Below, piece after piece: positions 9,696-11,464 of a stretch of DNA of 64,000 nt. Under the pieces are notes generated by a model. It was not told the DNA's origin. It saw only the letters and a list, made by a program, of their open reading frames with translations, and made no database searches. The translations under genes and the position numbers were made by a program. Numbering within the stretch: the stretch's first letter is position 1; every line of letters starts with the position of its first letter. The stretch comes from Gammaproteobacteria bacterium (lineage in GTDB: Bacteria > Pseudomonadota > Gammaproteobacteria > Pseudomonadales > Pseudohongiellaceae): assembly GCA_028818225.1 (NCBI GenBank), contig JAPPOG010000004.1, positions 131,213 to 195,212 on the forward strand, given 5' to 3'.

Positions 9696-9715
9696 CTGCT
9701 TTTGAGCTTGAATCG

Positions 9716-10057
9716 ATGGCTGAAAAACTGATTCCGATCTTGCACACCAAAGATGGCCTTGCTGCCGCTGCCTGGTATTCCCGTCTGGGTTTCGAAATCG
9801 AGGGCGAACATCGATTCGCCCCTGGCATGCCTCTTTATCTGTTTTTAAGAAGAGGAAACGACGAAATACATTTGTCAGAGCATAAGGGAGATGCTCGACC
9901 AGATTCACTCTTATATTTCTGGGTAAGCAATATCGATGAGCTTGCCAGGGAATTTGGCACCAAGCTTATCGAGCAACCCTGGGCTAAAGAAATTCACATA
10001 ACTGATCCAGATGGCCATCGGTTTAGAGTGGGGCAAAGACATGAAAACGATTCTTGA
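9716..10057 (+). CDS. VOC/glyoxalase superfamily protein, bleomycin-resistance-like
   Basis: This 113-residue cytoplasmic protein has one pair of beta-alpha-beta-beta-beta modules, opening with IPILHTKDGLAAAAWYSRLGFE and ending HITDPDGHRFRVGQ, the pattern of bleomycin-resistance and glyoxalase-like proteins. The metal-binding Glu/His set of glyoxalase I is not clearly complete, so it may be a binding protein rather than an enzyme. Its 3' end overlaps the start of the GDCCVxC gene by 17 nt in another frame. Confidence 0.85.
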   Translation: MAEKLIPILHTKDGLAAAAWYSRLGFEIEGEHRFAPGMPLYLFLRRGNDEIHLSEHKGDARPDSLLYFWVSNIDELAREFGTKLIEQPWAKEIHITDPDGHRFRVGQRHENDS

Positions 10058-10244
10058 GTCGACGATAAGTTGTCCTTACTGCAATCAGTCCAAATTAGAA
10101 GTTATGCCAACGGATTCCTGCATGTGGTTCTACCAATGCAGCTTTTGTGAGTCGATGCTGGAACCAAAAGCAGGTGACTGTTGTGTATTTTGTACCTTCG
10201 GTTCCATCCCCTGACCTCCGATACAGGAAAAAGCGAACAGTTAG
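10041..10244 (+). CDS. GDCCVxC-domain protein, candidate selenoprotein (TGA = Sec58)
   Basis: Read through one TGA, this ORF encodes 67 residues from the ATG at 10041. Cysteine pairs are CPYC (11-14), C33/C36, CC (47-48) and C51, with the family signature GDCCVFC. I recall that family members end in a conserved PCPPIQ-like tail. Here the frame reads SIP, then TGA at 10212-10214, then PPIQEKANS and TAG, so the TGA replaces a conserved Cys while homology continues. I also recall that the database name of this family allows for '(seleno)protein'. A SECIS-like hairpin lies downstream. Small Cys-rich proteins of this kind are probably redox or metal-handling; role unknown. The TAG overlaps the convergent MFS stop by 4 nt. 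A nonsense mutation or sequencing error is the alternative. Confidence 0.75.
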
Positions 10245-10250
10245 TTTGCT
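10232..10250 (+). promoter_or_regulatory. Putative bacterial SECIS hairpin
   Basis: AGCGAAC (10232-10238) pairs with GUUUGCU (10244-10250) as 7 bp including one G-U, closing the loop AGUUA. The loop begins 24 nt after the TGA and carries G at its second position; as I recall the bacterial SECIS consensus, the loop should start about 16-37 nt after the UGA with a G in its first two positions. GG/CC pairs may extend the stem across an A bulge. The hairpin overlaps the 3' end of the opposite-strand MFS gene. Confidence 0.6.
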
Positions 10251-11464
10251 CCAGTCATCTTTGTACTAATTGATTGATCGAGACTGCGCAGAGTCTTGCT
10301 GATCATAAAAAATCCTATAACGGTCGCCATTAAGAGAATACACGCACCCAGTATGGCGTTTGCAGCACCTATATTGTCAGCGGCTACCGCCAGAGGAAAT
10401 ACTCCAATGGGTGTTAGTCCGAATGACAGCATCATAAAACTACTCATTCGACCCCTTACACTATCATCTACCAGCAATTGAACGGCGGCATTGTTTACCG
10501 TCTGGCTGGCACTGGCGCAGATGTTGCCTAGCAATAGAGGAATCAGTGCGAGGTAGAAGTTTCCTGTCTGGGTGAAGATGGCGAGGAAAATCCCGAAACA
10601 AAAAGTACTGCCAATCATGATCTTCAGTCGGCCGGCGTGATCATCCCTGCGTGCAATCCAGATTGCACCCAGTACACCGCCAATTCCCATAGTTGCCATT
10701 AACATACCAACACCAGTTTCTTCTGCTTGCCAGGCTTCTTCTGCCAGGACCACAAGGATGTTCTGAAACGGCATAACCAGGAACATGGGCACCAACCCAA
10801 ACAACAGGCAGATCAGTACAGGTCGATGATCGAGAATATATTTAAAACCATAAGCAATATCTGCGAGCAGGGGTTTCTTTTCAGAATTTGGATCATTGGA
10901 ATAGCTGGGCTCGATGCCGAACATGCAGCTTATGGCGCAGGCATAAAGTGAAATAGACAAAATGTAGGCGGCGGTAAAACTGAATTGAGCAATGACGATA
11001 CCCATTACCGCCGGACCGAGCACTCTATTGAGATTCATGGCACCGGCTTGAAAAGCCAGGGCACGCTGCAAGCGTTGCGGACCCACGACATGTATTGTGA
11101 TTGCCATTCGGGCGGGCATGATGAAAGGAAACGCGCAGCCAGCGATAAAGGCCGTACAGAGCATGTGCCAAAATTCCAGTTGGCCTGACAGTAGTAGCAC
11201 GAGAATGAACACTTCGTTGGCAACAATGAGACTCTGTCCGAATATAATTAAGCGCCGACGTTCTACGCGGTCGGTGATTGCTCCGCCAAACAGGGAAGCG
11301 ATTACAAGGGGTATGGCTACCACGAGATTAATGTAGGCCAAAGCTGTCGCTTCGCCAGTTAACTCCCAGGCCAGCAAGGAGCGGGTAAGCATTTGTCCTT
11401 GCATCGAGAAAAAGAAAGCTACGTTGCCAAAGAATAACCAGCGAAATTGAACGAGTGAGAACAA
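10241..11464 (-). CDS. MFS transporter
   Basis: This 407-residue, roughly 12-helix major facilitator protein has the DRVERRR loop between helices 2 and 3 (GGAITDRVERRRLI), typical of drug or metabolite exporters. Substrate unknown. The start is unclear: TTG at 11464 has no Shine-Dalgarno site, while the frame stays open upstream and an ATT at 11515 has GGAG about 9 nt before it. The added residues (STLESEAETPSQNAFD) look like a normal cytoplasmic N-terminus, so a rare ATT start is possible. It converges on the GDCCVxC gene with a 4-nt overlap. A second, different MFS gene lies at 44207-45418. Confidence 0.88.
   Translation of the reverse strand: MFSLVQFRWLFFGNVAFFFSMQGQMLTRSLLAWELTGEATALAYINLVVAIPLVIASLFGGAITDRVERRRLIIFGQSLIVANEVFILVLLLSGQLEFWHMLCTAFIAGCAFPFIMPARMAITIHVVGPQRLQRALAFQAGAMNLNRVLGPAVMGIVIAQFSFTAAYILSISLYACAISCMFGIEPSYSNDPNSEKKPLLADIAYGFKYILDHRPVLICLLFGLVPMFLVMPFQNILVVLAEEAWQAEETGVGMLMATMGIGGVLGAIWIARRDDHAGRLKIMIGSTFCFGIFLAIFTQTGNFYLALIPLLLGNICASASQTVNNAAVQLLVDDSVRGRMSSFMMLSFGLTPIGVFPLAVAADNIGAANAILGACILLMATVIGFFMISKTLRSLDQSISTKMTGAN

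Follow-up and report, generated by a model that had tools for sequence, protein, structure and literature searches.

A GDCCVxC (GOS_B) family gene with a probable selenocysteine codon in the genome of a selenocysteine-using gammaproteobacterium

Introduction

Whether an in-frame TGA ends a protein or inserts selenocysteine (Sec) into it is the question raised by a short cysteine-rich gene of the GDCCVxC family, located in a window of 64,000 nucleotides (the whole stretch of DNA analyzed here) from a gammaproteobacterial draft genome. A preliminary description, made from the letters of this DNA and their open reading frames, proposed that the TGA stands where family members have Cys, that homology runs past it and that the gene therefore encodes a selenoprotein.

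The family was first reported in 2008 under the name GOS_B, when ocean metagenomes (GOS) yielded 11 Sec and 125 Cys forms (Zhang and Gladyshev, PMC2398784), and Sec members of it have been reported in PMC2398784, PMC13188914 and PMC9312934. In PMC13188914 the NCBIfam family NF041374, "GDCCVxC domain-containing (seleno)protein", is listed as hypothetical protein GOS_B, and the portion of PMC2398784 drawn on here gives no functional evidence for GOS_B. Several selenoproteins are tied to metal or metalloid resistance in PMC13188914, including a mercuric transport protein in its Sec form, SaoC and UXX-star, and Sec is proposed there as a possible metal ligand.

Results

The gene and its protein

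The start codon, the GDCCVFC signature, the TGA and the closing TAG at 10242-10244 all lie in one frame (Table 1), which translates as MKTILE...GDCCVFC...IP-TGA-PPIQEKANS-TAG and is preceded by a GGGG stretch shortly 5' of the ATG; re-reading of the sequence gave the same coordinates for the frame and the TGA as the preliminary description. The read-through protein matches NF041374 with 90 bits (E 8.3e-26), its residues 7-64 covering positions 1-58 of the 58 in the profile, while the protein cut at the TGA reaches 77.5 bits over positions 1-50; the curated threshold is 40 bits, which both forms exceed. This match bears out the family name given in the preliminary description, with its "(seleno)protein", and the gain in score and profile coverage on read-through agrees with the claim that homology extends beyond the TGA. 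The conserved Cys residues and those of the signature (C11, C14, C27, C33, C36, C47, C48 and C51) are all present in the TGA copy.

Table 1. Features of the GDCCVxC locus, in coordinates of the window.
Feature	Position	Strand	Details and basis
Glyoxalase_7 protein gene, directly upstream	9716..10057	+	Overlaps the GDCCVxC start by 17 bases; same order in L064
GDCCVxC / GOS_B family gene	10041..10244	+	67 residues if the TGA is decoded as selenocysteine (U58); frame, profile match and alignment
GDCCVFC signature	10173..10193	+	Reading frame; Cys columns in alignment
Probable selenocysteine codon: TGA in frame, in a column of invariant Cys	10212..10214	+	Frame and homologue alignment
Predicted bacterial SECIS-like structure	10212..10257	+	Fold prediction only; overlaps the TAG stop codon
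Main hairpin, 7 bp	10232-10238 / 10244-10250	+	Loop AGTTA (10239-10243), at a distance of 24 nt from the TGA
MFS transporter gene, convergent	10241..11464	-	Its stop overlaps both the hairpin and the last bases of the GDCCVxC gene

With Pfam, the sole match of the TGA-copy protein was far under the cut-off (8 bits vs 26.7). An AlphaFold model of the GDCCVxC protein (seven sequences) was of middling quality, with a mean pLDDT of 76.9 and a pTM of 0.59. Searches of the PDB gave best E values of 0.14 by sequence (RNA polymerase zinc domain, rubredoxins) and 1.0 by fold, neither convincing, and a zinc-ribbon or rubredoxin-like fold is therefore not claimed.

The TGA column in homologues

The alignment was assembled from genome searches, a scan of genome contigs and two plasmid records, with entry by a motif rule, and comprised 49 rows besides the window copy. 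Cys occupies the TGA column in all 48 homologues that have a letter there, the remaining row ending early at a stop, and it does so in ten further distinct copies that fell outside the main alignment or were added afterwards; this is the Cys that the preliminary description had named at this position. Left out of the alignment were the window's own copy (L021), the duplicates L031, L036 and L040, three copies from the genus in which the first letter of the motif is changed (L063, L082, L084), the truncated L064, and the decayed or stop-bearing copies L067, L068, L074, L076 and L078. Among these, L063, L082, L084 and L076 have Cys at the TGA column, L067, L068, L074 and L078 also keep it, and L064 breaks off 5' of it.

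At the codon level, 52 relatives have TGC (35) or TGT (17) at this column, a count that is no test of the codon used because the selection admitted only copies with TGC or TGT. Over the first five codons 3' of the TGA (PPIQE), codon pairs with the same 52 relatives were synonymous in 139 cases, non-synonymous in 50 and identical in 71, against 4 and 3 synonymous codons when the comparison was made in the two shifted frames. This synonymous excess indicates that homology at the protein level continues past the TGA.

Selenocysteine machinery of the genome

The source genome, a draft of 3.47 Mb in 89 contigs, is 97.5% complete. All four genes whose presence the preliminary description had made the first check of its proposal were found, each over its cut-off: the tRNA-Sec gene selC (62.4 bits, anticodon TCA), selA (581.5 bits), selB (398.3 bits) and selD (281.2 bits). 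A search of 84 genomes from the genus found selA in 76. The selD open frame has 788 residues with a front part that, judged by eye, is oxidoreductase-like, and it resembles the Ndh-SelD fusions described in PMC2398784. The encoded SelD (contig C28, locus L018, 1393-3759, minus strand) appears by eye to be of the Ndh-SelD type and has Cys in the SelD motif.

The genome also has a SelW-like gene (C40:62174-62377, minus strand; locus L088) that reads CMA-TGA-NYQ and scores 37.7 bits, over the cut-off of 34.2, its CMAU product being a candidate for a second selenoprotein. Taken with the sel machinery, this gene suggests that Sec use in the genome probably extends beyond the GDCCVxC gene. Downstream of the SelW-like TGA a hairpin with G second in its loop was noticed by eye.

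A predicted hairpin after the TGA

Folding of the DNA that follows the TGA predicts a structure resembling a bacterial SECIS element (bSECIS), in which the main hairpin is preceded by a small 3-bp hairpin and enclosed by a 4-bp stem that pairs TGAC with GTCA. The 49 nt from the TGA have a predicted energy of -11.6 kcal/mol, compared with a mean of -6.4 (sd 2.23) for 200 shuffles, of which 4 were as low or lower. According to the bSECIS rule in section 5 of PMC13188914, the loop has 3-9 nt with a G in its first two positions, the stem 4-16 bp, the distance from the UGA is 16-37 nt and the energy at most -7.5 kcal/mol; the present hairpin (loop 5, G second, stem 7, 24 nt, -11.6 kcal/mol) falls within all these limits. 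The rule is a loose one, since controls also pass it: 79 of 600 random TGA sites taken from the window, 22 of 500 shuffled sequences and 8 of the 45 Cys homologues, against none of 18 TGA codons that end long frames. A search of Rfam with window positions 9700-10700, at E values up to 5, gave no match. The hairpin lends weak support to the selenocysteine reading and does not carry it.

Genomic neighbourhood

The GDCCVxC gene begins within the end of a Glyoxalase_7 gene, to which it is presumably translationally coupled, and the neighbours in the window match a glyoxalase, an MFS transporter, a metallo-beta-lactamase-fold protein and an amidase. Among 62 loci searched, a single one, from a congener, has this glyoxalase gene (58.6% identity) and, behind it, a GDCCVxC gene of which only the broken start is left; this truncated gene (L064) is the only syntenic relative found. 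In that locus (about 1500-1910; G695, same genus) the overlapping GDCCVxC gene breaks off after MPTDSCQW.

Elsewhere in the source genome an intact Cys paralogue (C11:34148-34318, plus strand; loci L020 and L069) is located immediately behind a MerC gene in a merR-merC locus, where a divergent gene of the MerR family lies nearby. Relatives of this MerC occur in 13 of the 62 loci searched and relatives of this MerR in 35, the paralogue's own locus being included in both counts; the latter figure overstates the link with mercury because MerR is a broad family. A family relative was present in 349 plasmid records, from which seven regions, hand-picked and not random, were opened: MerT or MerP lies directly upstream in four and an arsenic operon is found in one, the others being one region without annotation and one with unnamed neighbours. 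Cys relatives are often found within mer or ars operons, next to MerT, MerP, MerC or ArsB. No mercury or arsenic gene is found among the window neighbours of the TGA copy, which weakens the case for a metal role of this copy in particular. In the protein tree, which is based on few columns, the TGA copy stands next to L062, a Cys copy from the same genus; support for this placement is modest (87/81).

Distribution of the family

Family matches were detected in 13 of 84 genomes from the genus, 8 of 99 from the family, 70 of 293 from the order, 71 of 369 from the class and 106 of 398 from the phylum, the five sets overlapping. Among the matches of these searches there was no second copy with TGA at the Cys column, matches that end before this column being uninformative on the codon there. 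Phage records gave no family match, and a protein scan of viral contigs recovered one relative, in which the TGA column is Cys. When viral contigs were scanned for the pattern of the TGA form, three matches were returned, none of which belongs to the GDCCVxC family.

Discussion

How the TGA is read

The complete Sec machinery in the genome, the Cys column in the homologues and the homology that extends past the TGA uphold the selenoprotein reading of the preliminary description, and the TGA is very probably decoded as selenocysteine in the cell. The reading that competes best, itself unlikely, is that the TGA arose through a sequencing or assembly error, or through a recent nonsense mutation of TGT or TGC, in what would otherwise be an ordinary or decaying Cys member. 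The genome being a draft of 89 contigs is in keeping with such an origin, as are the lack of a second TGA copy at the Cys column among the genomes sampled, the broken syntenic copy in one congener and the several decayed copies in other genomes. Decay of the TGA copy is also made possible by the intact Cys paralogue in the same genome, by a score lower than that of most relatives in the family-search tables and by the absence of Cys from its last aligned column, where 42 of 49 aligned relatives have it. An error or a chance mutation would, however, have had to place the only stop of the frame exactly at an invariant Cys column, in a Sec-using genome and in a family for which Sec members are already published, while the remainder of the frame stayed intact. 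Stop-bearing copies from ten other genomes (a set that includes two rows from G920) argue in the same direction, as none of the ten has its stop at the TGA column: they are decayed, frameshifted or truncated, or have the stop after the Cys. A divergent copy from the same class (L067 in G584) has a TGA at 2061; counted by hand, this codon takes the place of the final Cys in GDCCVxC, and it could be either a different Sec column or a sign of decay.

That the TGA is a true stop, yielding a protein of 57 residues with PPIQEK as the remnant of a longer ancestor and the hairpin as a weak terminator of the convergent gene pair, is highly improbable: the hairpin does sit at the meeting point of two convergent genes, and hairpins of a SECIS-like kind often arise by chance, but the 57-residue form would be without the invariant Cys and the Pro-Pro that follows it, protein sequence is kept in the codons after the TGA, and no long T-run lies 3' of the hairpin.

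A possible role in metal handling

Under the selenocysteine reading, the SelA/SelB/tRNA-Sec/SelD system would decode the TGA to give a Cys-rich protein of 67 residues, a step that the hairpin just 3' of the TGA, acting as a putative SECIS, may aid. The product would most likely be a small cytoplasmic handler of metals and thiols. The presence of Cys relatives in mer and ars operons leads to the proposal that the selenolate of Sec58 probably binds Hg(II) or a comparable soft metal or metalloid, or hands it on; alternatively, Sec58 might perform thiol-type redox chemistry on such a metal or metalloid. For a metal role as such, by analogy with the Cys relatives, the chances appear evenly balanced.

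With GOS_B/NF041374, as represented in the parts of the cited papers considered here, the TGA copy shares the full-length profile match over the cut-off, the GDCCVxC signature and the replacement of Cys by Sec within the family. The motif entry for GOS_B in PMC13188914, a dash, fits with a Sec located outside any CxxC-type motif, as in the TGA copy. The TGA copy differs in being located behind a glyoxalase gene and outside any mer or ars operon, and in coexisting with a Cys paralogue that has its place in a merR-merC locus. Its likeness to the metal-resistance selenoproteins treated in PMC13188914 is one of context and Cys/Sec content only. A tentative scenario, and a rather doubtful one, is that the two copies form a Cys/Sec pair of one metal-handling protein in one cell, the Cys form being in the merR-merC locus and the Sec form having moved from mercury control to a position behind the glyoxalase gene, where it would buffer metals through its selenolate or act as a metal-selenol redox protein, specialized beyond mercury.

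Significance

The GDCCVxC gene with the in-frame TGA adds a well-supported new member to a selenoprotein family already known, and is of a kind that gene callers clip or miss when they take TGA as a stop. The locus provides a genome-backed Sec form, in a genus that uses Sec, of a family to which no function is assigned in the parts of the GOS_B papers drawn on here. The occurrence in one genome of this Sec form together with a Cys paralogue next to merC makes the idea of a function in metal handling directly testable.
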